From a virus: a stretch of DNA of 53,588 nt. The notes under the pieces are model-generated. The model was given only the letters and a program-made list of their open reading frames with translations, had not been told where the DNA came from and ran no database searches. Below are positions 6,893-53,525 of the stretch, one piece after another; position 1 is the stretch's first letter; each line of letters opens with the position of its first letter. Location of the stretch: IMG/VR virus record IMGVR_UViG_3300025120_000071, positions 1 through 53,588 of that record; one strand, 5' to 3'. The translations under genes and the position numbers were made by a program.

Positions 6893-6895
6893 ATA

Positions 6896-7132
6896 ATGGA
6901 AGCACTACTTATTATCGCAGCATTAGCAGCCGGAGCACATTATCTTCAAGATGATGATGTGCCTAATAGCGCAATTCACAGTTCACAGACTACAAAAAAT
7001 ATTTCAACTTTTAAAGCAGATATCAATCATGAATTAAGCTTAGCCCAGATTGATTGGAGCAAAGCTGGCAACTTTAAAGTTGGTGATTCACCTGAAACTG
7101 GTGTGCAGTGGGTATTTTTAACAGGTAAGTAA
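6896..7132 (+). CDS. small exported or membrane-anchored hypothetical protein
   Basis: The 78-residue product starts with a hydrophobic stretch (about residues 3-17, rich in Ala, Leu and Ile) that may be a signal anchor. A soluble, polar C-terminal part follows. The ribosome binding site is AAAGGAG. No family is recognised. It may be a periplasmic or membrane helper within the glycan operon. Confidence 0.55.
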   Translation: MEALLIIAALAAGAHYLQDDDVPNSAIHSSQTTKNISTFKADINHELSLAQIDWSKAGNFKVGDSPETGVQWVFLTGK

Positions 7133-7133
7133 A

Positions 7134-7829: not shown

Positions 7830-8480
7830 ATGAGAGCATTTGTAATAACAATTGAAGATAATGAAAGATCAGTGAAATATGCTCAACGATGTATTGAATC
7901 AGGTAAAAAACACGGGCTTGAAATAAAACAATTTAATGCGTTTACTCCTAAAGATAATCCTGAAAAATTTTTAAAGTCTCGTGGAATTAACCCAAATAGA
8001 TTTAAAGAAAAATATTCAAGACCAGAAAATTGTATGTCTGCTTTTATTTCTCACTATTCATGCTGGGAAATATCTCGAGACATGAATGAAAAAGTAGTTA
8101 TATTTGAACATGATGCTCTTATAACTGGACAAGTTCCAGTTGATGTTGAGTTTGATAAAGTCATGACATTTTCTAAACCTTCTTATGGAAAATACAATAC
8201 TCCACTTAAACTTGGTGTAGATGGACTAATTCAAAAACAATACTTTGGTGGTGCTCATGGTTACATCGTTAAACCAGAAGGCGCTAAAGAATTAGTTAGC
8301 AAAGCGGTGTCGCACGCAGGACCTACGGATATATACCTCAATACGCAAAATTTCCCTTGGTTGCAAGAATACTATCCGTGGGTCTGCATGGCTGCTGATT
8401 CATTTTCCACAATACAAAATGAAACCGGTTGTTTAGCTAAACATAATTATAAAATAGGATATAAGATAATCGATGCCTAA
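7830..8480 (+). CDS. glycosyltransferase family 25-like protein (second copy)
   Basis: A diverged paralogue of the gene just upstream. It shares the MRAFVITIEDNE opening, the SAFISHYSCWE helix, the acidic motif VIFEHDALI (E93, H94, D95) and the HGYIVKPEGAKELV element. The start codon follows the previous stop directly. A tandem pair suggests two successive transfers in one glycan or a recent duplication. The identity of the sugars is not visible. Confidence 0.75.
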   Translation: MRAFVITIEDNERSVKYAQRCIESGKKHGLEIKQFNAFTPKDNPEKFLKSRGINPNRFKEKYSRPENCMSAFISHYSCWEISRDMNEKVVIFEHDALITGQVPVDVEFDKVMTFSKPSYGKYNTPLKLGVDGLIQKQYFGGAHGYIVKPEGAKELVSKAVSHAGPTDIYLNTQNFPWLQEYYPWVCMAADSFSTIQNETGCLAKHNYKIGYKIIDA

Positions 8481-9153
8481 AATGCCAGATAATTTATTCC
8501 TAACAGGATGTGATGAAAAAACTGAATGGCAGCTGCCATGGTTTTTAGAAAACTATTTTAAACATAACAATACGCCTATTGCAATTGGCAATTTCGGTAT
8601 GTCTGATGAGATGTTACGTTGGTGTGAAACTAAAAGCCATGCTTTTTGCTTAATGCATCATGATCAAGTTGGTCAGTTTGAAAAAGCTTGGTTCTTGAAA
8701 CCAGCTGCAATGTTAAAAGCACCGGGTAAAAAAGTAGTATGGCTTGACACGGATTGCCAAGTAATGTCAAATTTAGATCATATCTTTCGAATCCTTGTAC
8801 CAAATAAACTTAATATGGTAATGGATAGGCCTTGGCTTAAGCGTAGGAAAGAAGAGTGGTTTAATTCAGGTGTTGTAGGATTTATCGGTAAGCCAGAAAT
8901 TCTACATAAATGGGCTAAGCAAGTTGAAGATACACCTAACGTTGGTGATCAAGAAGTATTACACTCAATGCTTGATCCTCTTAATAGACAGATATATATT
9001 CATGAGTTACCGAATAAATGGAATTGGCTAAGGCTACAAATTGAACATGATAATGAAGATTCAAATGATAAGAAAATTATGCATTGGACTGGTGCTAAAG
9101 GTAATGATAGGATTAAAGGGTTGATGAAGATTAAGGAGACTATTCGTGCCTAG
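8473..9153 (+). CDS. putative glycosyltransferase (GT8-like)
   Basis: GT-A type protein with the DxD motif VWLDTDCQV (D92, D94), then FNSGVVGFIG and GDQEVLHSML, which in GT8 enzymes line the donor and acceptor sites. A conserved HWTGAKGN lies near the end. The start is ATG 8473, eight bases inside the previous gene; an alternative ATG lies at 8482. It overlaps the next gene's GTG start by 8 bp. Confidence 0.7.
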   Translation: MPKMPDNLFLTGCDEKTEWQLPWFLENYFKHNNTPIAIGNFGMSDEMLRWCETKSHAFCLMHHDQVGQFEKAWFLKPAAMLKAPGKKVVWLDTDCQVMSNLDHIFRILVPNKLNMVMDRPWLKRRKEEWFNSGVVGFIGKPEILHKWAKQVEDTPNVGDQEVLHSMLDPLNRQIYIHELPNKWNWLRLQIEHDNEDSNDKKIMHWTGAKGNDRIKGLMKIKETIRA

Positions 9154-9814
9154 AACAGTACATATTATTGGCAATGGCGATTCAGCAGCACTGTATCATG
9201 AAGAAACACGTAAAGGTTTAAAGCTTACATGCAACTTACCACCATTTGCTGTGGAGGATGCATATGCTACGTGCATGGTTGACTTTAAGATGATGCACAC
9301 TATTAATACCGGTGTGATTGATGTTCCTGGTGAATGGATTCTCGGTGCTCGTCCTAAGTTGTATATGGAAAAACATCCAATCTATTACACTAAACGTGCT
9401 CCACAAATTAAACAATTTTATACTAAACTTCCAAAGTATGCTGCAAACTACACAGACTTTAATTGTGGCCATATGGCAACATACTTTTCACTGGAGCATC
9501 TTAAAGCTGAAGTGATCCATATGTATGGATTTGATTCTATCTTTGATTTTAATTTAAGATCAAGTACAGATTTTTATATTACTTCTGATAGAGGCAATAT
9601 GAATAATAATCGGTTGACTAATAACTGGCGGCCACTATTCAATAGCATGTTTAAAGATTTTAAAGATACAAAAATAAACTTGCATCACTTCCATAGTCTA
9701 TTGAAGTTTGACGTACCATCTAATGTAGAGGTTCATAGTTATAAAAAACGTGGAGAGATTGTAGATGCTGGCAAAGGAAACGGTCAAATAAAAACTATAG
9801 ACTTAAGAGATTAA
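9146..9814 (+). CDS. Rossmann-like protein, possible sialyltransferase/DUF115-like enzyme
   Basis: Starts at GTG 9146 behind AAGGAG. The glycine-rich loop HIIGNGDSAAL (6-16) and the later NCGHMATYFSLEH and VIHMYGFDSIF segments resemble the DUF115 / GT42-like group of bacterial surface-glycan enzymes. That assignment rests on two motifs only. It is the last gene of the glycan island, and a new promoter follows at 9818. An alternative is an unrelated nucleotide-binding protein. Confidence 0.5.
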   Translation: MPRTVHIIGNGDSAALYHEETRKGLKLTCNLPPFAVEDAYATCMVDFKMMHTINTGVIDVPGEWILGARPKLYMEKHPIYYTKRAPQIKQFYTKLPKYAANYTDFNCGHMATYFSLEHLKAEVIHMYGFDSIFDFNLRSSTDFYITSDRGNMNNNRLTNNWRPLFNSMFKDFKDTKINLHHFHSLLKFDVPSNVEVHSYKKRGEIVDAGKGNGQIKTIDLRD

Positions 9815-15891: not shown

Positions 15892-15899
15892 TATAAATA
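15892..15899 (+). promoter_or_regulatory. T4-type late promoter before gp32
   Basis: Exact TATAAATA, 64 bases upstream of the gp32 start and overlapping the region of the sigma70-like promoter P6. It would keep gp32 expressed after the switch to late transcription. Confidence 0.7.
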
Positions 15900-35028: not shown

Positions 35029-38000
35029 ATGGCAATCACCCTCAGTAATACTATATTCCCATCTAAATATAAAGATGACTTTGCCGATAGTGATGGGTAT
35101 TATCGCATGCTATTTAATAGCGGTAGATCGTTGCAAGCTCGTGAACTTACACAGATGCAAACAATACTGCAAAGGCAGATTGAAAGACTAGGTTCTCATA
35201 CATTTAAAGAAGGCTCTGTAGTAAAGCCAGCAGAACAGATTCTTAATAACGCTTATGAGTTTGTAAAACTAGATCCTACATCAAATGCACTGGGTACTAC
35301 TGGAATAGTGGGTACAACATTTACTGGCCAAACATCTGGAGTTACAGCTCGAGCAATTGAGGGTGTTCAAGCAACTGGCTCTGATCCGGATACTATTTAC
35401 TTTGCATATACAAATGCCCCGTCTTCGCAATCTGGTACAACTACAGTAAGGTTTACTCCTGGTGAAGTAATAACAAATGGATCTGCTGTTCTTACAATAC
35501 AAATTACAAATACAGTTGCAAATCCTGCAGTTGGTCGTGGAACTCGATTATCGCTTGGATCCGGTATTTACTATGTTCAAGGTTATTTTGTATTTACCGA
35601 AGCACAGTCTACAATTGTTTCAAAGTATACTGATACTCCTACAGAAACTATTGGTTTTACTATTAATGAAAAAATTATTGATGTAGATGATGATGACGGA
35701 CTATACGATAATCAAGGCGCTACTCCAAACGTTTCTGCGCCTGGAGCAGATCGTTATCAAATTAAACTTTCATTAACAACTGAAACAGCAGCAGATGCTA
35801 CTCTTAATTTTATGCCAATCTTGAATATTCAAGATGGTGTTGTATATCGAAGCACAGATGAAAATAATACGTATAATATTATTGGTGATGTAGTTGCTAC
35901 AAGAATTAAAGAAAACTCTGGTAACTATCTAGTTAAAAGATTTAAAGTCGATATCAGCGAAGATTCTGATAAAGATCATCTTCTTTTAAATGTAAGTGAT
36001 GGTATCGCAGTTATTGATGGTTATCGCGCGGCTAAATATGCACCTACTGTAATTCGAATGGATAAGCCTGCAACAATCGATGAAATACAAAATGAAGTAA
36101 CAGTTGCTAATTATGGTAATTATGTTTTAGTTGACGCTACTATGGGTACAAATAATACAAAAGGTTTGCCCGGAATCAATACATTTGAAAAGTTTAACTT
36201 AAGAAATGCTGGTGGACACGCTGGATCTACAATTGGTACTTGTAGAATAAGAGCTGTATCAGAAGATACAGGAACTTTTATGAGATATTATTTATTTGAT
36301 ATTCAAATGTTGCCGGGGCAAAATTTTAGAAACACCGTGTCAATTGGCACTTCGGTTAATGATTATATTAATTTACATAGACCACTAGGTAAAGCAATAT
36401 TGAATGATGTTTTCCAAAATAATGCTCTTTTTCAATTGCCAGAATTAAGACCACAATCTGTTGATGATATATCTCTTACAGCTCAACGCAGATTTTCAGT
36501 TACAACTGATGGAACTGGAAATGCATCACTTTCGCTATCAGCTACTGGTGAAACATTTGCAAATGTAGGCGATTGGTTTTTTGCTAAAGCAGATAGCGAT
36601 GTCTTTACAGGAACTGTAAGTAATACTGGTGCAGGAGCAGCTGCAGCAAACTTAGGTGGATTACCTGCAAGTTCTACAATTGAAGTTCTTGGATATGTTA
36701 AAAAAGGAAAAGCTTCAGTAAGAAACAAAACACTGAATGAAACAACTGTTACAGCTTCAGTGGTAAATGGCGAACTACTTCTTGGTAAAGCAGATATTTT
36801 TGAAGTAACTCGTATTCGCGAAAACGATTCTGATGGTAGAGATTTTACTAATAAATTTATACTAGATAATGGCCAAAGAGATAATCATTACCGGAACGGT
36901 AGATTAAATCTAAATCAAGGTGTTGCAACACCAAGTAGTCCTGTATTTGTAAGATTTAAATATTTTACTCACGGAGTAAACGGTGACTTTTTTGCAGTTA
37001 ATTCATACATTGGTCAAGTAGATTACGATAAGATTTCGAGTCATACTCTATTAACTGGAGAAACTATAAACTTAAGAAGAGCTCTTGATTTTAGATCTGT
37101 AATGGATGCTGATAGCGACTTTGTTAATTCTGGTACCGGTGCACGAATTAATGAGCTTCCTCAAGTAAATGATACAATTCAAACCGATACAAACTATTAT
37201 TTACATAGAGGTTCAATACTTACAATTAATACAGAAGGAAACTTAGTATTAATTGATGGCCAAGATGCTTTTTCACCTAAGCTTCCACCACTGCCAATTA
37301 ATTCATTACCTTTGTATAACATTTTCTTAGGTGGCAACACTCTTAACGATTCAGATAATATAATTCAAAAGATCGATCATCGTAGATATACTATGAAAGA
37401 TATCGCCGAACTTGAAAAACGCGTTGATAAAATTGAAGAACAAACTGCATTGAATCTTTTAGAAATTGATACTAAAAACTTTAAGGTATTAGATTCTGCT
37501 GGCTTAGATAGAACAAAGTCTGGTTTCTTTGTTGATAACTTTTCAACACAATCATTTTCAGCATTTAATTCAACAGATTACAGGGCATCAATTGATCCTT
37601 TATTAAATCAACTACATCCAGCTTTTACTGAAGACAATGTTCGGATGATATACGATTCAGCAGCTTCGTCTGGTGTTATTCGCAAAGGCGATAACATTTA
37701 TATGACACATAGTTCTGTACCTTATATTAGTCAAACTAAAGCTTCAAGGGGAGTAAAACTAAATCCATTTGAAGCAGTCATCTATCATGGTGATATTGAT
37801 CTTTCTCCATCATCTGATGAGTGGAGAGAAACACAAATTAGAACTAAAAAAATTATGAATGGTGGAAGTAAACTTAATACTACGCAGGCATATTTATGGA
37901 ATAACTGGCAATGGAACTGGGGTGGAACTTCAATTAATGATTTAGCAGTAGGTTCTACTACTAATACAAAAACAACTACTACTAGTGCTAAAATTACTTC

Positions 38001-39075
38001 AGACACGAATAAAGTAGTATCAGAAGAAACATTGCTTGAAGTTACAGCCGAACGAGTAGTTAATGTTGCGCTTATACCATTTATGAGATCACGTAAAGTA
38101 TTCTTTAAAGCACAAGGTTTAAGACCTAGCTCAACAGTGTATCCTTATTTTGACGGTGTACGTGTAGATAATTTTGTAAGAGAAGAAACATTTACACGAA
38201 TGTCAACACTTGATATTGAATATGGTAACTTACATAATCAAGCTGGAACACACCCAGAAGGATCAAGTGCGCTTACAACTGATGTTAACGGTGCAGTTGA
38301 AGGATCATTCTTTATTCCTAATACTAATGCAATCAGATTTAGGACAGGAACTTTAGAATTTAAGATATTAGACATTAGCGCTGATGATGAAAGGAATGCT
38401 GGTACAATTGCTCGAGCATTATATGCATCTACTGGATATTTAGATACAATAGATCAAGATATTAAATCTACACGTATATTAAATATTGAGCATGTACAGA
38501 CTGTACAAAATAGACCACAAATATCGTACGGCGGTGGCGGCGGCGGTGGCAAATATGGCGAGCATGGTCATACACAGGGCGCAAATTATCAAGATTACCC
38601 AGGATCTAACTCTTGGGGCTCATCATCAGGTATGAATAACACCGAAGCACACAATGGTTATGGCTATGGGTTCCATGACCAAGGTCATGGAACTTCCGGA
38701 AGTTCCAATGATGGTACAGTTCTTTGTAGCTTATTACATAGAAGAGGTTATCTAACTGAGGATATATGGCGCTTAGATGCTGCTTATGGACAAATGACTA
38801 GAGATACAGATCCAGATGTTTATGATGGTTATTACGCTTGGGCTCAACCGATAGTAGAATGGATTGAGAAAGATACAATGTTAGCAAAAATAGGATTCCA
38901 CACATTGGCACTACCATTAGTTTCTTCTTGGGCAAAACACATTGCACATAGAATGGAACCAGAAATGCATAAAGATAATAAGCTAGGAAAGTTTATACTT
39001 ACCTTTGGAACTCCGATATGTAGATTGATAGGTTCTACAATAAATAAGAATATAGGAATGGAGCCAAAGCAATGA
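35029..39075 (+). CDS. very large baseplate/tail protein (DUF4815-type), gp10 position
   Basis: A 1348-aa protein starting with SNTIFPSKYKDDFADSDGYY and LFNSGRSLQARELTQMQTIL, the head of the DUF4815 family found in T4-like baseplates. Long beta-rich stretches follow, then a coiled segment (DIAELEKRVDKIEEQTALNLL, broken here for length, about 788-810). A Gly-rich linker (about 1165-1230) leads to a helical C-terminal module (LCSLLHRRGYLTEDIW, then DGYYAWAQPIVEWIEKD) that recalls the CFI-box-CTERM-like end modules of other proteins. It is likely an outer wedge or fibre-attachment protein. It overlaps the next gene by 4 bp. Confidence 0.65.
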   Translation: MAITLSNTIFPSKYKDDFADSDGYYRMLFNSGRSLQARELTQMQTILQRQIERLGSHTFKEGSVVKPAEQILNNAYEFVKLDPTSNALGTTGIVGTTFTGQTSGVTARAIEGVQATGSDPDTIYFAYTNAPSSQSGTTTVRFTPGEVITNGSAVLTIQITNTVANPAVGRGTRLSLGSGIYYVQGYFVFTEAQSTIVSKYTDTPTETIGFTINEKIIDVDDDDGLYDNQGATPNVSAPGADRYQIKLSLTTETAADATLNFMPILNIQDGVVYRSTDENNTYNIIGDVVATRIKENSGNYLVKRFKVDISEDSDKDHLLLNVSDGIAVIDGYRAAKYAPTVIRMDKPATIDEIQNEVTVANYGNYVLVDATMGTNNTKGLPGINTFEKFNLRNAGGHAGSTIGTCRIRAVSEDTGTFMRYYLFDIQMLPGQNFRNTVSIGTSVNDYINLHRPLGKAILNDVFQNNALFQLPELRPQSVDDISLTAQRRFSVTTDGTGNASLSLSATGETFANVGDWFFAKADSDVFTGTVSNTGAGAAAANLGGLPASSTIEVLGYVKKGKASVRNKTLNETTVTASVVNGELLLGKADIFEVTRIRENDSDGRDFTNKFILDNGQRDNHYRNGRLNLNQGVATPSSPVFVRFKYFTHGVNGDFFAVNSYIGQVDYDKISSHTLLTGETINLRRALDFRSVMDADSDFVNSGTGARINELPQVNDTIQTDTNYYLHRGSILTINTEGNLVLIDGQDAFSPKLPPLPINSLPLYNIFLGGNTLNDSDNIIQKIDHRRYTMKDIAELEKRVDKIEEQTALNLLEIDTKNFKVLDSAGLDRTKSGFFVDNFSTQSFSAFNSTDYRASIDPLLNQLHPAFTEDNVRMIYDSAASSGVIRKGDNIYMTHSSVPYISQTKASRGVKLNPFEAVIYHGDIDLSPSSDEWRETQIRTKKIMNGGSKLNTTQAYLWNNWQWNWGGTSINDLAVGSTTNTKTTTTSAKITSDTNKVVSEETLLEVTAERVVNVALIPFMRSRKVFFKAQGLRPSSTVYPYFDGVRVDNFVREETFTRMSTLDIEYGNLHNQAGTHPEGSSALTTDVNGAVEGSFFIPNTNAIRFRTGTLEFKILDISADDERNAGTIARALYASTGYLDTIDQDIKSTRILNIEHVQTVQNRPQISYGGGGGGGKYGEHGHTQGANYQDYPGSNSWGSSSGMNNTEAHNGYGYGFHDQGHGTSGSSNDGTVLCSLLHRRGYLTEDIWRLDAAYGQMTRDTDPDVYDGYYAWAQPIVEWIEKDTMLAKIGFHTLALPLVSSWAKHIAHRMEPEMHKDNKLGKFILTFGTPICRLIGSTINKNIGMEPKQ

Positions 39076-43487: not shown

Positions 43488-43982
43488 ATGAGATTTATCG
43501 ATGCATATTTTACTAACAATGAAAGAACTGTTGTAAGTATACTGTGGGAAAATGATAAGAAAGAAGTAGTAGAAGAAACAGTCTTGGCAGAAGCAAATGA
43601 GGCTGGCTGGGAAAATCTTTTGAATCAACCTGAAGTTACTATTGATAAGTTACATGAAAGAACTGTAAATAGGAATAGAGAACAGCGCGCTATTTTCGAA
43701 GAACAGGTATTAGAAATTGCTAAACGTGACGGATTAATTTACGACGGTGATATAGTTAATACCGATTTGTATAAAATGTTTGTAAAAGCTATTTTTAATA
43801 CCGAACTTACAGAAAAAGAAGTAAAAGAACAACTCTTTATGTTTAAACTAGCATTATTTGAATTAGATAAAATTAAAGAGTCCGATAATCGTGAAATGAA
43901 AGCGGCATTACGAAAAGCTGAAACTCTACCAGTTGCTTTGAAAATTGGATGTGAATTATTCGAGAGCGACCTCTCTTCTTAA
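43488..43982 (+). CDS. hypothetical protein at end of fibre operon (164 aa)
   Basis: Begins MRFIDAYFTNNERTVVSILW and continues mainly helical and charged, with KLALFELDKIKESDNREMKA near the end. This type of protein closes fibre operons in related marine phages (from memory) and could be a fibre assembly chaperone, but this is not shown. Its last 27 bp overlap the end of the converging radical SAM gene, and no terminator is visible. Confidence 0.6.
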   Translation: MRFIDAYFTNNERTVVSILWENDKKEVVEETVLAEANEAGWENLLNQPEVTIDKLHERTVNRNREQRAIFEEQVLEIAKRDGLIYDGDIVNTDLYKMFVKAIFNTELTEKEVKEQLFMFKLALFELDKIKESDNREMKAALRKAETLPVALKIGCELFESDLSS

Positions 43983-45038
43983 TTGAAATTGATTAGCTTT
44001 TCTAAGTTGTGTACTACATTGCTTTCTACATATTCCTGTAGGGTTATTACTAATACTTTCTTGTAAAGTTTTTGTATACCATTCGCTTTTAATTATATCT
44101 TTAAGTGGTGTAAATTTAATATTATGAAGTAAAGCATTAGCTTTGAAATCTTTAACTAATTCAATTTCATTAAAACTTGGTCTATATTGGCTATAGACCG
44201 ATGCGCCAAAATAACAACACGGCCACACTAATCCGTCAAAATTAATATTCAAGTTATTAGTAACTGCCCACTTACAAATTATCTCATTGCTTAAATTAAT
44301 ATTTTCACCTAAAGGCACTTGAGTATTTGTCCACGGTTTATCAGCCCATTCTAATATTACTTCGTTATTATTTTCATCTAAAAACTTATATGGTTTATAG
44401 TTGCCATTTTTGTCTTGCTTAAATCTATCACTCTTTACAAATGCATTATTTTGGCTACCATAAGATTTTGTTAATTCTTTAATTTCTTCCATATAATCTT
44501 GATTATGTTTAAAGATAATACTTTGAGATCTAGTTATAGATTTTCCGTTATCACTAAACGCTTTCATATTATCTAAAACTTTTTGTAATTTAGTATTTCT
44601 TCTATACATAGAATGCATTTCTTGATTAATACCATCAATATCAAATATTGTAATGAAATTTTTTCTATGATGTTTTAAAGCTAATCCACCTAACCACCAC
44701 CAATATTCTTCTGTACGCATTGATCCATTAGTAATATTAGTAAGAGTTGCATCGACTGGTAACATTTCTAATAAATGGTCTATAATTTCATATGCATCTG
44801 GATTCATCATAGGGTCTCCCCACGTTGGCGAAAAAGTAATTGATTTAACATTTTTCAATTGCTCTTTTGTATATACTGATTTTACGGCATCAATACTCCA
44901 GTGCATTAGTGGTATGTTTTCTCTTTTCTTTAACCCACCAGAAGTATGATCGGTACGAGCACATTGCGGACATTTGGCATTACAGTGTGTTGTAAAATCT
45001 AATACAAGACTTATATCTTTATTTTTCCATTTATGCAT
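43956..45038 (-). CDS. radical SAM protein with SPASM-like C-terminus
   Basis: Last gene of the minus-strand biosynthetic operon. The 4Fe-4S/SAM site is THCNAKCPQCAR (C19, C23, C26). SITFSPTWGDPMMNP gives the GGE-like strand in altered form (GDP). The C-terminal part has CKWAVTNNLNINFDGLVWPCC and CRKQCSTQL, a SPASM-like pattern with an auxiliary cluster. It would carry out a radical reaction on a peptide or sugar substrate. Its 5' end overlaps the upstream glycosyltransferase by 8 bp. Confidence 0.8.
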   Translation of the reverse strand: MHKWKNKDISLVLDFTTHCNAKCPQCARTDHTSGGLKKRENIPLMHWSIDAVKSVYTKEQLKNVKSITFSPTWGDPMMNPDAYEIIDHLLEMLPVDATLTNITNGSMRTEEYWWWLGGLALKHHRKNFITIFDIDGINQEMHSMYRRNTKLQKVLDNMKAFSDNGKSITRSQSIIFKHNQDYMEEIKELTKSYGSQNNAFVKSDRFKQDKNGNYKPYKFLDENNNEVILEWADKPWTNTQVPLGENINLSNEIICKWAVTNNLNINFDGLVWPCCYFGASVYSQYRPSFNEIELVKDFKANALLHNIKFTPLKDIIKSEWYTKTLQESISNNPTGICRKQCSTQLRKANQFQLRREVALE

Positions 45039-45792
45039 TTAGTATTATTCCAAAGTCTTTATTAACGACATGATAGAAATGCGCGCCGGCCGATACATCT
45101 CTGTGTGTATTATCTAATATAAAATTCCATTGCAATCCTATATTAGTATATGGAAGATTATATCTTTCTATTATATATGTTAAATAGACTTCATTGTTTG
45201 GTTTCCACTTACTACTTATTTCAGTAGGATATAGATTATCTTCTTTTGCCTTATGATATACATCATAACATTTAGAAAAATCCATCAATCGCGCTGATTT
45301 TTTATTAACGCCAATTACACCAGTATTAATAACTAGATTGCTGTTGTTAATATCATCTAAAAGCAACATTGCGTTTTTACAACATGCTTTTAAATACATA
45401 TCCATAGGATGCCAATTATCATCTTTCGTTCTGTATCCACGTACTTCATCTGGTATTGTTGTATCAATGTTATAAACACAAATTGTATTAAGATCGAAAT
45501 GCTCGAAAAAAGATAGATGTGTATTAATAATTACATCAAAGTCAAGATACAACACTTCATCATACTCTTGTGTTAACTTTTTTATCATACTTATTTTTTG
45601 AAATTGTATAACATCATAGCTGCTTTCAACATCTGTAAATAATTTATAATCAGCACCGCATAACTTAGCATAGGCCTGATGATTGCCTATGATTTGTTCT
45701 TTATATTTTTTAAATTGATTGCGCTTATATGAAGGAGCAGATGTGTGTTTATCTATATCTTCTCGATAAATGCTAAAGATTATTCGTTTCAC
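45031..45792 (-). CDS. putative glycosyltransferase (GT-A, DxD)
   Basis: GT-A protein with YLDFDVII (D84, D86) and NTGVIGVNKKS. I place the start at GTG 45792, behind TTAGGAAT, giving MKRIIFSIYRED like its neighbour. An ATG at 45813 in frame is an alternative that adds seven residues. It overlaps the upstream gene by 20 bp. It resembles the next gene upstream in layout, so the two form a pair. Confidence 0.65.
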   Translation of the reverse strand: MKRIIFSIYREDIDKHTSAPSYKRNQFKKYKEQIIGNHQAYAKLCGADYKLFTDVESSYDVIQFQKISMIKKLTQEYDEVLYLDFDVIINTHLSFFEHFDLNTICVYNIDTTIPDEVRGYRTKDDNWHPMDMYLKACCKNAMLLLDDINNSNLVINTGVIGVNKKSARLMDFSKCYDVYHKAKEDNLYPTEISSKWKPNNEVYLTYIIERYNLPYTNIGLQWNFILDNTHRDVSAGAHFYHVVNKDFGIILNA

Positions 45793-46546
45793 ACCAATTC
45801 CTAACATATTCAAAGTCTTTATTGATGCAATGAATAAACTTAGTATTAGAAGGTATGTAACTAAATTTATCCATAAAATAGTGCCAACCGGTTTGATATA
45901 GATTCTGATACTCTTTTATTTTACACGCAAAAATAGTTTCATTGTCATATCCAAATAAGTTACGTATGTCTTCTGGCCAGAAATCATCTTCTTTTAGTTC
46001 TTTCATTTCTTGTAATATTGTATGAAGCTCTCCAAAATAATCAAGTGCACTTAAATCATTTTTATATGCGCCAACAATGCCGGTATTAAAAACTTCTTTT
46101 GTATGTCCCATCGCTCTGGCATTCCAATATTTAGCCAATGGAGATCGAATACTGTGACTGCTTCTATTAATATCTTTGAATCTCCAGTCTTCAGACATAA
46201 CTGCAATACCTTTTGATAGATCCCATTCTTCAAAGAAGTTTAGTTTTGTTACAGGTATAACATCCATATCTAAGTAAAGTATTTCATCATGTTCAAGTTT
46301 ATATAACAAAAACATTTTATAAAAATTTATAATGTTATATTCAGATATATCTGGACCGAACTGTTTACTAAATTCTATATAGTCATCATCATAAGTAAAG
46401 TGTTTATATTCTACGCCACAATGATTTGCATATTGTTGCTGTCGTTCTAGCAACCAAGAATAGTTTTGGTTAAACTTATCTTTATTTTCAAAGTGAGATA
46501 CAGGTTTTTGTATATCGATATAAAGACTATAGATTATTTTAGACAA
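45773..46546 (-). CDS. putative glycosyltransferase (GT-A, DxD)
   Basis: Opens MSKIIYSLYIDI, with LYLDMDVIP (D93, D95) and FNTGIVGAYKND as acceptor loop. The C-terminal FIHCINKDFEYV is also seen in shorter form in its neighbour (YHVVNKDFG). The same type of enzyme occurs in the plus-strand island (2038, 3765, 5437), so both islands use related transferases. Sugar unknown. Confidence 0.68.
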   Translation of the reverse strand: MSKIIYSLYIDIQKPVSHFENKDKFNQNYSWLLERQQQYANHCGVEYKHFTYDDDYIEFSKQFGPDISEYNIINFYKMFLLYKLEHDEILYLDMDVIPVTKLNFFEEWDLSKGIAVMSEDWRFKDINRSSHSIRSPLAKYWNARAMGHTKEVFNTGIVGAYKNDLSALDYFGELHTILQEMKELKEDDFWPEDIRNLFGYDNETIFACKIKEYQNLYQTGWHYFMDKFSYIPSNTKFIHCINKDFEYVRNWCETNNL

Positions 46547-47189
46547 GACCTATTACCATATATCTTTCATAATTGTTTGACATTACTTTAGTGCCTTTAT
46601 ATATGATACGTGATAATCCAGATTTTTTTACGAAATCGTCTTCACTAATACTACAATTTATGTGATCATCAACATAGAACATGTTATTACTCTGCAAGGC
46701 GAATATACATGTTTTTATATATTTTTTATTAGCAATCAATTCAGGTAAATCTGGCATGTGTTCTGATGATGTATTAATAACTAAATCAGTTCTTTCCCAG
46801 TCCGGAGTTTTCTCTATAGTTTTTACATCTCCATAGGTTGCTTTATATTTTTTATTTTTATAATAACACATTTTTGCAAATGCTTTAAGTGCTTTTTTAT
46901 CTAAATCAATATTTTCTAGTAATCCTATTCCTATGCTATCTTCTAAAAAATCTATAAGAGGGTAACCTAGCCATCCTCCATATAATTGGATAATAGTATT
47001 ATCGAAAGGAAGAAAGCTTCCTCTCATCTTCTTCAATTCATCAGCTAGCCATTTTTTACATTTTAGTTGATCTGGTGATAAACTTATAATCGCTTGTTCA
47101 AAATTGTATTCCATTTTGCTTAGTTCACGCAGAAATTTCCAGTAAAATGGATCAATAATATTGTTCAAAACCTCTGTATCCTTCATCAT
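46539..47189 (-). CDS. putative class I SAM-dependent methyltransferase-like protein
   Basis: Rossmann-like layout with IQLYGGWLGYPLIDFL (about residues 67-82), then an acidic strand LLENIDLDKKAL and DLVINTSSEHMPDLPELI (about 134-152) in the motif IV place. The NTSSEHM element is a pattern I associate with phage-encoded methyltransferase-like proteins. The start at 47189 overlaps the upstream gene by 38 bp; a later ATG at 47114 is possible. Substrate unknown. Confidence 0.55.
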   Translation of the reverse strand: MMKDTEVLNNIIDPFYWKFLRELSKMEYNFEQAIISLSPDQLKCKKWLADELKKMRGSFLPFDNTIIQLYGGWLGYPLIDFLEDSIGIGLLENIDLDKKALKAFAKMCYYKNKKYKATYGDVKTIEKTPDWERTDLVINTSSEHMPDLPELIANKKYIKTCIFALQSNNMFYVDDHINCSISEDDFVKKSGLSRIIYKGTKVMSNNYERYMVIGLV

Positions 47190-47856
47190 CTAAAAGAAAA
47201 CGATTTTTTATTTTATCAGTTTTTCTTCTCCAACCGTTAAATATACAAATATTGTAGTTTTTTTCAAAAAAATAATTTGGTTCTATATCGTCACCGGCTC
47301 TCCAATAACGATTTTCATCTATACCGTATAATCTGGAATAAACTTCATCCCTTGGTATATACAATAGTTTTTCATTTTGGTCATGATCTAAATAAGAATC
47401 TATTCCATTATATTTTAACATGTAATAATCTTGATTTTTTTCAAATTTATTCCACATATCGGTGCAGTCACCGGACCATATCATAATGGATGAATTTAAT
47501 TTTGTGTCAAATTCAGTTATATCATATGGTTTCCAATATGCTTTTATAAGACAAAGCATATTTTCTACACAAAGGTTTTTTAAATGTGTAATATTATTTT
47601 GTATTACTATATCTAAATCTAAAAACATTGTTGATGTTTTAGTCGGATATTCAAAGAGAGTCAGTTTCCACCACCAATTTTCTAAATCATAATCAGGTAA
47701 TGGTTGGATAATAACGTTACGATTTATTCCATTTGCATTTTCTGTATGGCATATAAAATTAAAGTCACCATGAAAGTTTTTACATACCATTCGATATAAT
47801 CGATTAACATGCTCATGGCTAAATTTATCACCCCACTTTAAACATATAATATTCAT
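47152..47856 (-). CDS. putative glycosyltransferase (GT-A, DxD)
   Basis: Starts MNIICLKWGDKFSHEHVNRL, then WWKLTLFEY and MFLDLDIVI (D80, D82), and LNSSIMIWSGD. This is the layout of a GT8/DUF-type glycosyltransferase group with N-terminal KWG. It overlaps both neighbours. Donor and acceptor unknown. Confidence 0.65.
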   Translation of the reverse strand: MNIICLKWGDKFSHEHVNRLYRMVCKNFHGDFNFICHTENANGINRNVIIQPLPDYDLENWWWKLTLFEYPTKTSTMFLDLDIVIQNNITHLKNLCVENMLCLIKAYWKPYDITEFDTKLNSSIMIWSGDCTDMWNKFEKNQDYYMLKYNGIDSYLDHDQNEKLLYIPRDEVYSRLYGIDENRYWRAGDDIEPNYFFEKNYNICIFNGWRRKTDKIKNRFLLDDEGYRGFEQYY

Positions 47857-48509
47857 ATCATGAACCGCTTAGTATTACGCGCTTGATATTTATCTCTGAA
47901 CTCTTTTGGACTACTGCTTTTATTTCTGGATCTATCAGATATAACTATGCTCATTTCTATATTATTATTTTTTGCTATTTGCTGTGCTTTTTCTATCTTA
48001 TGTTGATTAAAATCAAATAATATAAATTGCCATATAACTTTTTTACTTAGTTTTGCACCAAGAAACATTGCTTCAAATACTAGTTCACTATTTTGTTTAA
48101 TTCTGTATTCCGGAACTTCGCCCGGCAAATTATCTAAGCCGAATACCCAAGATACGTTATCACCATGTATACTATATGCATCTTTATACCAGTCTATATT
48201 TTTTTGATGAGCGGCAGTAGCAACATTAAATAGTTTTTTTGGATATTCATTTGTTATGGCTAATATTTCTTTAAACTTTGGATGATATATTGGATCAGAT
48301 ATTTGTCCGCACATATTAATACGGGTAAAATAGTCAGCCATTTTTCTAAAATTATCGATAGATATAGCTGTAGAATTTTTAATTTTATTTTTTGCTCTTG
48401 GGTCTTGACGCTGGCAACCTGGACATTCTAAAACACATTTACTACACATATCTAAGTTACATCTTGCATTATATGCTTGACGCATTATATATTCTTCATA
48501 ATCACCCAT
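47853..48509 (-). CDS. radical SAM core protein without SPASM domain
   Basis: I start it at ATG 48509 behind TGTGGAG; a longer frame from 48593 would overlap the upstream gene by 92 bp. The cluster is CSKCVLECPGCQRQ (CxxxCxxC = C25, C29, C32) with two further cysteines just before (C17, C22). MCGQISDPIYHPKF stands in for the usual GGEP strand. The 218-aa protein covers only the barrel part. The gene just upstream encodes a separate SPASM-like piece, so the two may form one split enzyme. Confidence 0.7.
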   Translation of the reverse strand: MGDYEEYIMRQAYNARCNLDMCSKCVLECPGCQRQDPRAKNKIKNSTAISIDNFRKMADYFTRINMCGQISDPIYHPKFKEILAITNEYPKKLFNVATAAHQKNIDWYKDAYSIHGDNVSWVFGLDNLPGEVPEYRIKQNSELVFEAMFLGAKLSKKVIWQFILFDFNQHKIEKAQQIAKNNNIEMSIVISDRSRNKSSSPKEFRDKYQARNTKRFMI

Positions 48510-48828
48510 TATATACTCCACATTTTTTTCTACATACTCTTGGAGCACGATCAGGTTCATGTAGTATGGAATACATGAACATTTTCCAAACATCAGAATT
48601 TATTATATCATCTACACTTACATTGTTTTCTAATTTTAATTTATCATCTTTAAATCCAAGATTTTCAAATGCTTTTTCTTCTAGATCATCACACCAACAA
48701 CAAGGTAATATAAAACCATCAGCACAATATGCAATACCTTTTACGTATTTCTTTTTTGCATATATCTTCTCACCTTCTTCATCATAGTAAAAAGGTGAGC
48801 ATTCAGGTTTTATATAAGATAAAGTCAT
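48502..48828 (-). CDS. stand-alone SPASM-like Fe-S protein
   Basis: A 108-aa protein with CADGFILPCCWCDD (C35, C43, C44, C46), an interior DVWKMFMYSILHE helix, and CRKKC (C98, C102). This matches the C-terminal auxiliary-cluster region of radical SAM proteins such as the one at 43956 (INFDGLVWPCC, WYTKTL, CRKQC), but without any barrel. Its stop overlaps the start of the radical SAM core gene by 8 bp. It also overlaps the carbamoyltransferase end by 26 bp. A partner or split half of the neighbouring enzyme is the best guess. Confidence 0.65.
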   Translation of the reverse strand: MTLSYIKPECSPFYYDEEGEKIYAKKKYVKGIAYCADGFILPCCWCDDLEEKAFENLGFKDDKLKLENNVSVDDIINSDVWKMFMYSILHEPDRAPRVCRKKCGVYNG

Positions 48829-50209
48829 TTATAACCAATATATCAAGAGCTGTTTTATTAAATGTATTTATTGCTTGTTCAGGAGTCTCAACTATAGGTT
48901 CTCTACAATTGAAACTTGTGTTTAATAATATAGGATGTCCAGTTGCCTGATAAACATGCTGAAGAAGCTCATACAATTTTGGATTTTCTTGTTCATTCAC
49001 CGTTTGTATACGTGAAGTACCATCAACATGAATCACACCGGGTATGGATTCTTTAGCACTATCTTTTGCTTTTACGATACGAGACATATATGGGCTAGGT
49101 TGTGTAATGTCGAAATACCAGTGTGCATGATCCTGTAATATAACAGGAGCAAATGGACGGAAGTCTTCTCGATGTTTTATAGTTTTATTGATTATATCCT
49201 TTATGTTAGGATTGCATGGACTAGCTAAGATACTACGATTACCTAAAGCCCTATGTCCACTTTCAGATTTACCTTGAAACCAACCTACTATTTTACCCGC
49301 TTGTAGTTCCCATGCTAAAGCTTCTAAGTTTACTTTTTTATCACCAACAAATTCATATTCTTTTCCACTATATTTACTAGGAATATGTATCCTACAATTA
49401 AGCATTTTTTCGGCATGCATATATGTTCCTATTGATTGCCCTTCATCGCCAGGTGCTGGTGGAACATACACTGAATTATAGTGTTTAGTAAACTCTTCGT
49501 TCATATAACCATTATATGCTACACCGCCTGCAATACAAATATTATCACATGATTTAAGTGGAAAAACATGCCTCTTAATAAGATCTATAGTATGATGCTG
49601 TAATGTTGCGGCTATGTCTTCTTTCTTAGCATTCAATAAGTAGTCATAGTTTTTATTTTCAATTGCTAAATGTATGGCAATATTATATTCTCCGTATGCT
49701 GATAATCCCATAAGCTTGCTGGCACCTAAGTCTCCAAACCCTAATCTTTTCGAAAAGTAATTCCATAAGATACCGATATTCATCTTATCGGATAGATCTG
49801 TTATGTTGCCGGTTTTATCTACAAAGATACAATTATAATTCCAACCGCGTCCATCTATGGCTAATACGTCAGAAGTATGATATGCTGAATCTAAAAGAGC
49901 GTATGCCGCATGAGATTGATGATGATCAATATAATACTGATTGCCTATCATCTTATAATCCCATAAGTGTTTAGGCTTCCAATCTAAAAACTCTTGTTTA
50001 ATTTTATGATGTGGTATTGATTCCATCCCACCGATAGTTACTGTAAACGCTAAAACTTCATGATCATCCGGTTTAAAATATTCATCATAAAATTTAGCAG
50101 TACCATCAAAGTTATGTTTTATACGACTATATCTTTCTATTTGATTATGAAATACTCCGTCATAAACGTTATGATCATGTGGTCCTAATGCAACACTAAA
50201 TATTTTCAC
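48803..50209 (-). CDS. carbamoyltransferase, NodU/CmcH family
   Basis: Transfers a carbamoyl group from carbamoyl phosphate to a hydroxyl on a sugar or antibiotic-like acceptor, through a carbamoyl-adenylate. Seen: DHHQSHAAYALLDS (about 95-108, Kae1-like metal-binding site), LAIDGRGWN, IAGGVAYNGYMNE, GKSESGHRALGNRSIL (nucleotide site) and HREDFRPFAPVI, in family order. At 468 aa it is about 100 residues shorter than NodU or TobZ, with a compact N-terminus. It overlaps the upstream radical SAM gene by 4 bp. Confidence 0.9.
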   Translation of the reverse strand: MKIFSVALGPHDHNVYDGVFHNQIERYSRIKHNFDGTAKFYDEYFKPDDHEVLAFTVTIGGMESIPHHKIKQEFLDWKPKHLWDYKMIGNQYYIDHHQSHAAYALLDSAYHTSDVLAIDGRGWNYNCIFVDKTGNITDLSDKMNIGILWNYFSKRLGFGDLGASKLMGLSAYGEYNIAIHLAIENKNYDYLLNAKKEDIAATLQHHTIDLIKRHVFPLKSCDNICIAGGVAYNGYMNEEFTKHYNSVYVPPAPGDEGQSIGTYMHAEKMLNCRIHIPSKYSGKEYEFVGDKKVNLEALAWELQAGKIVGWFQGKSESGHRALGNRSILASPCNPNIKDIINKTIKHREDFRPFAPVILQDHAHWYFDITQPSPYMSRIVKAKDSAKESIPGVIHVDGTSRIQTVNEQENPKLYELLQHVYQATGHPILLNTSFNCREPIVETPEQAINTFNKTALDILVINDFILYKT

Positions 50210-51009
50210 AGTACTTTACCAGCTGAAACAATATCTAATATTTGATCTTCTGATCTTTTATCAATATGTTCAGTACACTTTTTACAATAATTCTCAAATT
50301 CAAATAATTCATAGTTCATCATTTTATCTATGTTTTCCTTTGTAACATCAAATTGTCTTGATCCATTAATTACTTTTTTACTACAATGACGAATCTTTTG
50401 AATCTCAAAATCTACTACAGGTACTTTCGGAAATGCAGCACACATCTTACGATCAAATTCTGGTGCTTGTTTAATATTAATAAAATCCGGTGCGCGCGAA
50501 TTAAAAGATTTAAATTTAGTATTTTTATGATCTAATATTGATAAATCATGATTTTCTCTATACTTAAAATAATTAGGTGTCATTATGATAAAATTGTAAT
50601 TGTTTAAATCGTTTTCTTTAAAAAAATTATAGTTTCCTAATTTCTCTATTTTGTCTTCATGAAAATCTAATACTAAGTGCTCAAAATATAATACACTTGG
50701 ATCTTCAATTATATTTGGATAGCGTTTACGCACAAAAGAATTAGATAAAACTGTAGGTATTAAATTTTTATGCTTTTTAATTTCGTCTACAACTTCATTC
50801 AAGTTTTTAATTAGACCGGGTTCACCGCCTAGCAATTGTATTTTAACAACGTATGGTGATAACCCCTTTAGAGTTTTACTAAGGAAATTCATGTCAACGG
50901 TAAGGTTTCTCATTTCCAAAGTCCAAGCTGTACAATAATGACAAGACTTGTTACAAGATTTTGATAAGTAAAAATCTATACCTCTTATATCAAATACATC
51001 ATCATACAT
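50206..51009 (-). CDS. radical SAM protein
   Basis: Cluster site KSCNKSCHYCTAW (C19, C23, C26 counting from ATG 51009) and the SAM-binding LLGGEPGL. The C-terminal part has CAAFPKVPVVDFEIQKIRHC and YCKKCTEH, so further Fe-S ligands are possible. I take ATG 51009 as start; a TTG at 51027 would overlap the upstream gene. The reaction is unknown; a sugar or amino-acid radical modification is likely from context. Confidence 0.8.
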   Translation of the reverse strand: MYDDVFDIRGIDFYLSKSCNKSCHYCTAWTLEMRNLTVDMNFLSKTLKGLSPYVVKIQLLGGEPGLIKNLNEVVDEIKKHKNLIPTVLSNSFVRKRYPNIIEDPSVLYFEHLVLDFHEDKIEKLGNYNFFKENDLNNYNFIIMTPNYFKYRENHDLSILDHKNTKFKSFNSRAPDFINIKQAPEFDRKMCAAFPKVPVVDFEIQKIRHCSKKVINGSRQFDVTKENIDKMMNYELFEFENYCKKCTEHIDKRSEDQILDIVSAGKVL

Positions 51010-51010
51010 A

Positions 51011-52069
51011 TTATGCCATAACACCAATTATCATAGCAGTTGTTAATGCTTCTTCGTCTGTTACATAAGGATGGCAAGGTAAAGATAAAATTGTATCACT
51101 CGCTATCTGCGCGTTAGGACACGGCTTTAACTTAAACATGCTGTTAGCTGATAGTGGTTTATCATAATGAATTTTTGCTCCGAGTTCATCTTTTACTTCA
51201 TCACGTATTTCTTTATTTTCAAACCTTACCACATATTTATGGTAGTTGTGAAGCATGCTCATGTCATCTGGTATCTGACTTATAACTGGTATATCTTGTA
51301 ATGCTTCATGATATTTATAAGCAACTTGGGTTCTTAACAATTGTAGTTCTTTAATGCGATCAAACCTCATTTCAATATATGCCGCATTCGTATAAAACAT
51401 TTTTGAATTATAACCAAGCATTTCATGATCGTTGCCTTTACCATGTCTTCGTAGTTTACGAAGGTAGTCTGCAATTATTTTTACGTTAGTAAGTACCATG
51501 CCTCCACCAGAAAGACCTGATATAACTTTGTTGCTATTGAAACTAAAAGAACTAATATCACCAATTGAACCAGCATATCTACTTTTATAAATCGAGCCTA
51601 GAGATTGTGCGGCATCTTCTATAAATGCTATATTGTTTTCTTTACAGTACTTTTCTATTTCTTTTGTTTCAGTCATATTACCAAACAAGTGAGTATAGAT
51701 AAGTGCTTTAGTTTTACTCGTAGTTTTCTTTTTAATCTCATCAAATGATATGTGGTAAGAATCTAAATCAATATCGCAAAACACCGGTGTGGCTCGAGCC
51801 ATGAGAATGCAAGATGCAGATGAGATCCACGAAAAATCACTGACTAGTACCTCATCACCCGCACTAACGTTAAAACATTTAAGTGAAAAGAATAATGCGT
51901 CTGTAGCACTATTAATAGCAACTGCATGTTCACGGCCAACATACTTTGCAATCTTTTTTTCTAAAAACTCTATGTTCTTTTCGTTATCTTCTTGCATTAC
52001 TTTATCAAATAAGTTTTGATATAGCTCCTTATTTTTAAGATAGTCTTGATCCCAACCTTCATAATTCAT
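51011..52069 (-). CDS. DegT/DnrJ/EryC1/StrS-type aminotransferase
   Basis: PLP-dependent enzyme that usually puts an amino group on a nucleotide-linked keto sugar. Seen: AINSATDALFFSLK (PLP phosphate loop), IEDAAQSLGS (E151, D152), SFSFNSNKVISGLSGGG with catalytic Lys181, and the NYHKYVVRF strand. At 352 aa it is near full length (family about 370). It implies that the operon makes or uses an amino sugar, although dehydratase partners are not in the window. It overlaps the upstream gene by 11 bp. Confidence 0.9.
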   Translation of the reverse strand: MNYEGWDQDYLKNKELYQNLFDKVMQEDNEKNIEFLEKKIAKYVGREHAVAINSATDALFFSLKCFNVSAGDEVLVSDFSWISSASCILMARATPVFCDIDLDSYHISFDEIKKKTTSKTKALIYTHLFGNMTETKEIEKYCKENNIAFIEDAAQSLGSIYKSRYAGSIGDISSFSFNSNKVISGLSGGGMVLTNVKIIADYLRKLRRHGKGNDHEMLGYNSKMFYTNAAYIEMRFDRIKELQLLRTQVAYKYHEALQDIPVISQIPDDMSMLHNYHKYVVRFENKEIRDEVKDELGAKIHYDKPLSANSMFKLKPCPNAQIASDTILSLPCHPYVTDEEALTTAMIIGVMA

Positions 52070-52886
52070 TTAGAATATTCTCCACGTTTGGTTTTTGTAT
52101 CTTTCTATTTTTATAAACTTCAGCACCTTTGTTAGTAGCTTCAAATATCATATCTTTCTTATAGTATATACACTCTTGTATAATCCTTGGCGCAGGATCT
52201 AAAATACTCTTAGTGTAAACATATGTTTCAAATATACCTAGCACATTGGGAATAGGCACTACAAGATTATTAAACCTTGAGTTGATAACACCTATGTCAT
52301 AAATCATAATGCCATGATCTGGATATTTCTGTATTACAGATTTTGCTGCATTATAATATTGGCTATTAGTTCCGTTAAACAAATATTGGAACTGTATGTC
52401 TTTTTCTATTGGCTTGTAAATATCAAACCAAATTCTTTTTTCAAATGGTTTGCCTTCACCGTTTGGATATATGTCATAGTCACATAAGTCTATTACTTCT
52501 TCAGGGCAAAAATATTCTAATGCTTGATTATATTCTACCGGATGGTTCTCAGAATATACTGATATAACTTTATCTCTGAATAGTAAATGCAATAAAAGCA
52601 ATTGATCTATTTTGTATGATTCTCTATCTTTGTAACCAAGAGTCATCATACTTCTACCCATAATCAATGTCACACCGGTATACACAAAATCGTCTACAAT
52701 CACATTATCATAAAAAGTATATTTTTCTGTGATAGCATTAAAGTAGTCTTCTTCAGTAAACAAAGGATGCGATATAATTATAAGATGGGCTGCAGTGCCA
52801 ATACTATTAAGGTAACTACAATATTCATAACTATAATATAATAGACCATCACACGGCTTAGCCGTGCATACTATATTCAAAGCCAA
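52059..52886 (-). CDS. putative glycosyltransferase-like protein (GT-B type)
   Basis: A 275-aa protein with two Rossmann-like halves: LNIVCTAKPCDGLLYYSYEY at the N-terminus and, near the end, ETYVYTKSILDPAPRIIQEC followed by IYYKKDMIFEATNKG, which resembles the donor-binding region of GT-B enzymes. No DxD is present, as expected for GT-B. The call is a pattern match only. It overlaps both neighbours by about ten bases. Confidence 0.5.
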   Translation of the reverse strand: MALNIVCTAKPCDGLLYYSYEYCSYLNSIGTAAHLIIISHPLFTEEDYFNAITEKYTFYDNVIVDDFVYTGVTLIMGRSMMTLGYKDRESYKIDQLLLLHLLFRDKVISVYSENHPVEYNQALEYFCPEEVIDLCDYDIYPNGEGKPFEKRIWFDIYKPIEKDIQFQYLFNGTNSQYYNAAKSVIQKYPDHGIMIYDIGVINSRFNNLVVPIPNVLGIFETYVYTKSILDPAPRIIQECIYYKKDMIFEATNKGAEVYKNRKIQKPNVENILNEL

Positions 52887-53485
52887 GAAATAACCTCATC
52901 AATAGTTGGTTTGTTTTCATTCTCTCTTTGCCTGTTCCATTTTTTATATCCTAAACTCATAACAATATAAACATCTTCATTTACAAAACTAAATCTTTCT
53001 TTTATATAAGGTAAACAAGCAGTATAAGAAACATCGATATTATTTTCTAAACATAAGCAAGATAATGTTAGCATAAACATTCCTATTTCAATAGCTGGTA
53101 TATTTTTATACTTTTTATAACTATGTACATTACATTCTTGATATTCGCGCCCTTTTAATATTAAATTTTGAACATGTAAATTAGGAGGAAAAGCTAATCG
53201 TTGTGTAAAAACTAAAACGTATGGAGCAAGCAATTGCTTATTATGATATGAATTTGTAAAACTAGATTCTTTAGATTGTGTATTTTTTGATAAGTCAAAC
53301 AGTTCTTTCTTTTCATCTATTTTGTCTGGTCCTAATACTAATACTTCATATGGCATAAGATTTTGTTTTGATGGTACCAGTTCATAAGTTTTTTCTAAGA
53401 GACTTTCAACTAACTCTTTTTCCGGAAAAACATCGTCTTTAAACCATTCAACTTGTTTTCTTCTAGATAAAAGTTCTTCTAGCAT
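52877..53485 (-). CDS. nitroreductase-family-like flavoprotein
   Basis: First gene of the minus-strand operon. The opening LEELLSRRKQVEWFKDD, KTYELVPSKQNLMPYEVLVL and the later IEIGMFMLTLSCLCLENNID with ACLPYI fit the FMN-binding nitroreductase fold (R-R-S-x-R-x-F-type start and NxQP-like loop in altered form). At 202 aa it is of usual length. It could reduce a substrate or intermediate of the pathway. AGGAG precedes the ATG, and a sigma70-like promoter lies immediately upstream. Confidence 0.65.
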   Translation of the reverse strand: MLEELLSRRKQVEWFKDDVFPEKELVESLLEKTYELVPSKQNLMPYEVLVLGPDKIDEKKELFDLSKNTQSKESSFTNSYHNKQLLAPYVLVFTQRLAFPPNLHVQNLILKGREYQECNVHSYKKYKNIPAIEIGMFMLTLSCLCLENNIDVSYTACLPYIKERFSFVNEDVYIVMSLGYKKWNRQRENENKPTIDEVISWL

Positions 53486-53496
53486 TATTATCTCCT

Positions 53497-53525
53497 ATTA
53501 TACCATATTTATTCGTGTTTGTAAA
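53497..53525 (-). promoter_or_regulatory. sigma70-like promoter P7 for the minus-strand operon
   Basis: On the minus strand: TTTACA (53525-53520), 17 bp spacer, TATAAT (53502-53497) preceded by ATGG, as in P3. The ATG at 53485 is only 11 bases beyond the -10 box and the AGGAG lies within the first bases after it, so the transcript may have almost no leader. It would drive all twelve genes down to 43956. Confidence 0.75.

Follow-up and report, generated by a model that had tools for sequence, protein, structure and literature searches.

A putative glycan-tailoring island with radical SAM enzymes beside the tail genes of a T4-like marine phage

Genes of the island

The window analyzed here is the whole of a 53,588-base virus record in IMG/VR (IMGVR_UViG_3300025120_000071; guanine-cytosine content 34.8%), which is a fragment of a T4-like marine myovirus. 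On its minus strand, from position 53485 down to 43956, lies a run of twelve genes, lettered A (3' end) to L (5' end), which we studied as a candidate sugar-modifying system. The original prediction had described overlapping minus-strand genes behind one promoter, encoding three radical S-adenosylmethionine (SAM) proteins, a SPASM-like protein, a carbamoyltransferase, a DegT aminotransferase, a nitroreductase-like protein, a methyltransferase-like protein and about four glycosyltransferases. This layout was borne out (12 open reading frames, overlaps at all 11 junctions, and a strong extended -10 promoter), and Pfam, PHROG, profile and fold evidence confirmed the enzyme types. The operon adjoins VrlC and tail-fibre genes, as in the Pelagibacter phage Mosig EXVC030M; a large tail protein akin to VrlC-type proteins is encoded at 35029-39075. 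On the tail side, a convergent gene (43488-43982, plus strand) marks a conserved position of the island: homologues occupy the equivalent place in two contigs from marine metagenome-assembled genomes (MAGs; contigs L085 and L086), and Mosig is arranged alike.

Three adjacent core genes, J, I and H (all lettered genes are on the minus strand), bear on the proposed chemistry. Gene J (51011-52069) encodes a sugar aminotransferase of the DegT/DnrJ/EryC1/StrS family (266 bits against PF01041, cut-off 19.8). Its closest solved chain is annotated as a scyllo-inositol transaminase (E 4.8e-52), and the nearest relatives with solved structures are aminotransferases of sugars and of inosose/inositol. In the butirosin pathway, a DegT-family aminotransferase acts on ketones derived from ring alcohols. 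Adjoining J, gene I (50206-51027) encodes a twitch-type radical SAM protein whose predicted fold comes closest to that of BtrN. Although it scores just below the Pfam Radical_SAM cut-off (27.2 versus 29.5 bits), the CX3CX2C residues C20, C24 and C27 are invariant in 32 sequences, as are four further cysteines (C191, C210, C243, and C246), as for an auxiliary cluster. In a Foldseek search of the PDB with the predicted structure (mean predicted local distance difference test score, pLDDT, of 81, lower around residues 20-33), BtrN ranked first and was the sole match below 1e-3 (E 2.6e-4); the sequence profile of I reaches BtrN at E 0.05. In butirosin synthesis, BtrN turns a ring alcohol into a ketone; four cysteines ligate its auxiliary cluster (PMC9012708). 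A BtrN-like ring-alcohol oxidation is a candidate activity for I. Finally, gene H (48803-50209) encodes a NodU/TobZ-type carbamoyltransferase, with both Carbam_trans_N (PF02543, 66.2 bits) and Carbam_trans_C (PF16861, 221.3 bits) over their cut-offs. It matches TobZ and NovN with a conserved DGxG, and the HHxxH metal-binding motif of the Kae1-like domain appears as H96, H97, Q98, and H100 in at least 97% of 48 alignment rows. H does not reach the equivalog cut-off for NodU itself (138.6 versus 1000 bits for NCBIfam NF041651).

Gene I also matches prokaryotic viperin profiles (E 6e-10), as well as viperin structures by sequence profile. It might then modify nucleotides as viperin does, and the cluster might serve counter-defence or interference. 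We hold this to be the least probable reading of the run, as the match is limited to the radical SAM core (residues 17-97), I scores 29.9 bits against NCBIfam NF038283 (cut-off 180), its four extra invariant cysteines are a twitch-type feature, and its best fold match is BtrN. A viperin identity was therefore rejected on the partial match and the failed cut-off. PADLOC returned weak, partial matches only (pVip for I, SspA/DndA for J).

Downstream of H, gene G (48502-48828) encodes a stand-alone SPASM/twitch-like auxiliary-cluster protein, and gene F (47853-48509) a radical SAM protein that lacks SPASM and is the probable partner of G. The start of F was placed at 48509 rather than at 48593 (where the open reading frame 47853-48593 begins), because with this more likely start F has the customary short overlap with G and, at 218 amino acids, about the median length of its family. 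F carries CX3CX2C and matches the phage radical SAM family phrog_21308 (E 1.5e-14). G alone shows no SPASM match; members of its family match PF13186, and their invariant cysteines (C...G-x4-CC...C-x3-C) fit one auxiliary cluster.

Several observations bear on how F and G work together. We searched IMG/VR with individual genes and kept the best 80 loci per search, on contigs that are often cut; G lies beside F in 78 of the 80 copies recovered with G. When a genome carries two or three pairs, each G fits its neighbouring F better than the other F. The correlation between F and G tree distances is 0.85, against a mean of 0.63 after reshuffling G within genomes; 0.55% of the reshuffles reach 0.85, some of them leaving the order unchanged. 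Fused SPASM-radical SAM chains also occur among relatives, and in 11 loci (e.g., L070:429-3335) SPASM, radical SAM and carbamoyltransferase parts are found in one chain of 955-978 amino acids. Adjacency, co-divergence and natural fusions thus suggest that F and G are probably two subunits of one radical SAM enzyme, with the SPASM cluster supplied in trans, and they may well act in the same pathway as H. The F of the window is distant from other F proteins (35% identity to the nearest), so that the two-subunit proposal is weakest for the window itself. Neither its F nor its G matches NF033640 (N-terminal-twitch radical SAM, single chain), against 296-303 bits (cut-off 170) for the relatives L066 and L070. 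G/F pairs also occur in phage loci where searches found neither H nor I; many of these runs read G-F-E-D, the order seen in the window. Five loci (L191, L209, L210, L225, and L231) carry such G-F-E-D-type runs with no H or I found, as if these genes were a separable half-operon.

The remaining genes comprise four glycosyltransferase-like genes and three others. Core gene K (52059-52886) is GT-B-fold glycosyltransferase-like: its AlphaFold model (pLDDT 92) has PimA, BshA and other GT-B proteins as top Foldseek matches, and DPAPR...E is invariant among 27 family members. Core gene C (45773-46546) and its paralogue B (45031-45813), which align with each other, are GT8-like glycosyltransferases with scores below the PF01501 cut-off of 24.3 bits (24.0 for C, in which DxD is invariant, and 21.1 for B); both carry DxD. 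Gene E (47152-47856) is a glycosyltransferase with a DxD motif (D80/D82 invariant) that matches the PHROG glycosyltransferase family phrog_1962 (E 2.8e-11). None of K, C/B, and E matched a solved structure in sequence-profile searches. Core gene D (46539-47189) is class I SAM-dependent methyltransferase-like, as its family profile matches Rossmann SAM-binding folds. The first gene, L (52877-53485), is nitroreductase-family flavoprotein-like; alone it remains below the PF00881 cut-off (22.0 versus 23.5 bits), while its family profile matches PDB nitroreductases at E 8.8e-7. The last gene, A (43956-45038), encodes a radical SAM protein with a C-terminal SPASM domain (PF04055, 36.8 bits; PF13186, 31.0 bits; both above curated cut-offs).

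Some phage glycosyltransferases act on DNA, and T4 alpha-glucosyltransferase is among the fold matches of K, so the enzymes might hypermodify phage DNA bases by glycosylation and carbamoylation. This is very improbable: T4 alpha-glucosyltransferase is one of many GT-B matches of K, no base hydroxymethylase is annotated in Mosig, and SAR11 is nearly devoid of restriction-modification according to Zaragoza-Solas et al. 2020 (PMC7029224). The original prediction had listed phage DNA among the possible targets, and no positive evidence for it emerged. DNA modification was accordingly rejected, given the lack of annotated supporting genes in Mosig and the unspecific fold match.

Conservation and occurrence of the module

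The search with H yielded 80 loci, which were reduced to 58, including Mosig, after dropping identical H proteins; contiguous same-strand runs were read, and families were assigned by BLAST and single-linkage clustering. D is present in 52 of these loci, I in 48, E-type glycosyltransferases and GT8 genes in 44 each, nitroreductase-like genes in 43, J in 42, F in 38, and G and K in 34 each, many of the absences being due to contig ends. The core order K-J-I-H-D-C is retained in nearly all loci holding those genes. Reciprocally, among 58 distinct loci found with I, 57 have H on the same strand, 54 J, 47 D, and 46 K, and the median gap from I to H is -3 nucleotides. Within the module, 97% of 653 junctions lie within 30 nucleotides and 84% overlap. 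Such an operon-like neighbourhood agrees with the view that the run is one sugar-tailoring unit. Copies in relatives are open frames, and the median ratio of nonsynonymous to synonymous substitution rates (dN/dS) between close pairs is 0.07 for I, 0.09 for H, 0.12 for J and D, 0.14 for K and F, 0.19 for G, and 0.22 for L. Conserved order and low dN/dS indicate that the genes are kept and used. Had the genes been broken in relatives, or been recent independent insertions, the prediction of a single unit would have suffered; neither pattern was found, and the conserved order and purifying selection rule out the latter.

Around this core, gene content varies extensively. The 28 loci spanning K to D display 20 gene orders, of which 19 are readable (the other is an empty entry from a rearranged locus), and among 16 pairs of loci with I proteins of 90% identity or more, 11 have different gene contents. 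Cassettes found between core genes include F/G pairs (up to three per locus), nitroreductase-like genes (up to several copies), NF033640 radical SAM genes, PP-loop ATPases and SGNH-hydrolase-like genes. This variation is the pattern of a surface-antigen island. Two cassette families deserve a remark. The SGNH family (A11; e.g., L039:6131-6913), which does not occur in the operon of the window, often lies just before the aminotransferase; judging from its motifs (a GxS block and a terminal D-x-HPN), it is perhaps a sugar acyl-esterase or acyltransferase. Similarly, the accessory PP-loop ATPase (e.g., L024:1736-2584) resembles NAD synthase/QueC and is possibly a sugar amidotransferase.

Among the typical maturases of ribosomal peptides are radical SAM/SPASM and nitroreductase-like enzymes, and many radical SAM/SPASM families of this type, including those giving weak NCBIfam matches here, act on peptides. 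Together with the multiple F/G pairs and nitroreductase copies per locus, this raises the question of whether the cluster makes a modified peptide. We find this unlikely: the tightly packed junctions leave no room for a separate precursor gene, and the presence of four glycosyltransferases together with a DegT aminotransferase and a carbamoyltransferase speaks for sugars. A ribosomal-peptide cluster was rejected for want of room for a precursor.

The original prediction had called for the gene set to be sought elsewhere, and it recurs in the IMG/VR loci, in Mosig and in three MAG contigs. Among 50,697 phage records, Mosig alone carries I (61% identical) and K (49%); no relative of either was found in any cyanophage record of this collection. 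We also scanned the genomes of 84,980 bacterial and archaeal species for I, with short exact patterns that may miss distant relatives; this returned three contigs (L084, L085, and L086), all from marine MAGs. All three carry the module and two have flanking tail genes; they are probably phage contigs misbinned into bacterial MAGs. One of these MAGs is assigned to Pelagibacter, and in the 297 genomes of its order a full-length match to I was found only in that MAG itself. Within the collections searched, the module is thus viral.

The window holds a second glycan cluster (2038-9814, plus strand), with GT25 and GT8-like glycosyltransferases, two methyltransferases and a UDP-galactopyranose mutase (4427-5437, PF03275). 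Mosig likewise has a second glycosyltransferase/methyltransferase cluster, at 124832-131228.

Promoter elements and proposed function

Upstream of L, at 53497-53525 on the minus strand, lies a sigma70-type promoter (TTTACA-17-TATAAT) with an extended -10 (TGGTATAAT), which is the best match of the region (11/12 plus TG), the total number of promoter-like matches in the region being no higher than expected by chance. Inside it, at 53506-53513 on the same strand, is an element resembling T4 and cyanophage late promoters, AATAAATA. Both types recur in relatives: of 28 module loci, several of which are closely related and hence not independent, 11 have TGnTATAAT ahead of their first gene (0.22 expected) and 20 have the late element NATAAATA there (2.2 expected). 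In the window, TATAAATA late-like elements stand just upstream of structural genes (at 15892, 20532, 21043, 21065, 29470, 32760, and 41731), with a total count not above chance, and the extended -10 is nearly absent at the starts of the structural genes tested. As early- and late-type elements coexist, the operon may be transcribed both early and late, which fits the remodelling of the host surface and is compatible with virion decoration.

The reading that we favour, with a probability of roughly one half, is that the run is a phage glycan-tailoring island in the host-recognition region, which would make an amino- and carbamoyl-bearing sugar and remodel a polysaccharide of the host surface. 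The predicted fold of I, the position and relatives of J, and the matches and motif of H suggest as the simplest pathway oxidation, amination, carbamoylation, methylation and transfer, in an order and on a substrate that we infer. Acting like BtrN on a sugar or cyclitol made by the host, I would turn a ring hydroxyl into a ketone, which J would aminate; H would move a carbamoyl group from carbamoyl phosphate to the sugar; and D would methylate it. Cassette enzymes could introduce further oxidation, reduction or acyl changes, before K, C, B, and E transfer the finished unit to an acceptor glycan. The acceptor would most likely be a host surface polysaccharide, and its remodelling during infection would keep competing or sibling phages from binding. 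The twelve genes include none for nucleotide-sugar synthesis, transport, flippase or polymerase functions, so the pathway likely draws on precursors and acceptors of the host (or on phage genes not seen here).

That absence is one of several points which weigh against this proposal. The model of I is uncertain at the loop of its radical SAM cluster (pLDDT below 50 at residues 20-23 and 28-33), its template modelling scores against BtrN are 0.45-0.48, below 0.5, at 14% identity, and the twitch/SPASM enzymes anSME, MoaA and EpeE come close behind BtrN in the fold search. More generally, structural matches do not prove chemistry, and the substrate and product are proposals. The record is also a fragment. 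Lastly, a late-promoter element before the operon would also fit virion decoration.

Under this last alternative, the same enzymes would build a glycan carried by the tail fibres or baseplate rather than by the host surface. The operon is directly beside the tail and VrlC genes and convergent with them, and the late-type NATAAATA, which is also found before structural genes, precedes it in the window and in many relatives. Yet the strong sigma70-type extended -10 promoter, near-absent before the structural genes tested, suggests expression before virion assembly, and no glycoprotein acceptor is evident. We thus regard virion decoration as possible but doubtful, although it ranks well ahead of the peptide and DNA alternatives.

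Beyond remodelling of the host surface, one may tentatively imagine a phage-only, exchangeable "serotype" chemistry of radical SAM oxidation, amination and carbamoylation, in which split, two-subunit radical SAM-SPASM cassettes would be swapped between relatives to give glycan units unknown in any cell; we would not yet bet on it, although it seems slightly more plausible than virion decoration. Should the island work as proposed, abundant ocean phages would run a sugar chemistry that their hosts lack, diversified gene by gene beside the tail fibres, and there would be a molecular handle on the competition of SAR11 phages for the same cell. Biochemistry would gain a phage-only radical SAM family as well as a radical SAM-SPASM enzyme that is naturally split, and the presence of the module in the isolate Mosig makes these ideas testable in culture.

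Comparison with known systems

The closest isolate, Mosig, infects Pelagibacter and carries homologues of L, K, F, J, I, H, D, C, and E, together with a G-like gene, in one run (MT647606, 60990-71305) that converges with tail genes including VrlC, as does the operon of the window. Identities between homologues range from 28 to 61%. The cassettes stand in another order, homologues of A and B were not found in Mosig, and its run additionally contains an SGNH-like gene and another nitroreductase-type gene; these genes have been annotated gene by gene only. For pelagimyophages, Zaragoza-Solas et al. (PMC7029224) describe a hypervariable host-recognition cluster in which glycosyltransferases and cassettes of "radical SAM" genes lie at VrlC, and they propose modification of the host O-chain. 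The island of the window fits this pattern, with its hypervariable glycosyltransferase and radical SAM genes at VrlC and tail fibres. Their paper mentions neither a carbamoyltransferase nor an aminotransferase, and its sections considered here describe no core gene order and no split radical SAM-SPASM pair.

Cellular pathways offer partial parallels. As with BtrN and BtrS, a twitch radical SAM protein with four auxiliary-cluster cysteines adjoins a DegT-family aminotransferase. The butirosin/2-deoxystreptamine set differs in that identities are low, that the window adds a carbamoyltransferase and glycosyltransferases, and that no inosose synthase family (2-deoxystreptamine pathway) was found among the 12 genes. 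H shares both Pfam domains and the HHxxH metal motif with NodU, TobZ, and NovN, but its chain is shorter and is fused to SPASM-radical SAM in 11 relatives. T4-like marine cyanophages carry lipopolysaccharide gene clusters and Nol-like carbamoyltransferases (PMC3037559). They resemble the window in combining a T4-like marine phage with a carbamoyltransferase, but no relative of I or K was found there.

Literature searches returned no relevant paper on this gene combination. The original prediction that no pathway with this set had been described thus holds for the chemistry; it does not hold for the genes, as Mosig has most of the set, and glycosyltransferases and radical SAM cassettes were already known from this island, as PMC7029224 records. 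As far as the literature considered here shows, several aspects are new: a defined core with reciprocal linkage; a phage-only I with a BtrN-like predicted fold that stands beside an aminotransferase and a carbamoyltransferase; a co-diverging split radical SAM-SPASM pair; and a natural fusion to the carbamoyltransferase.

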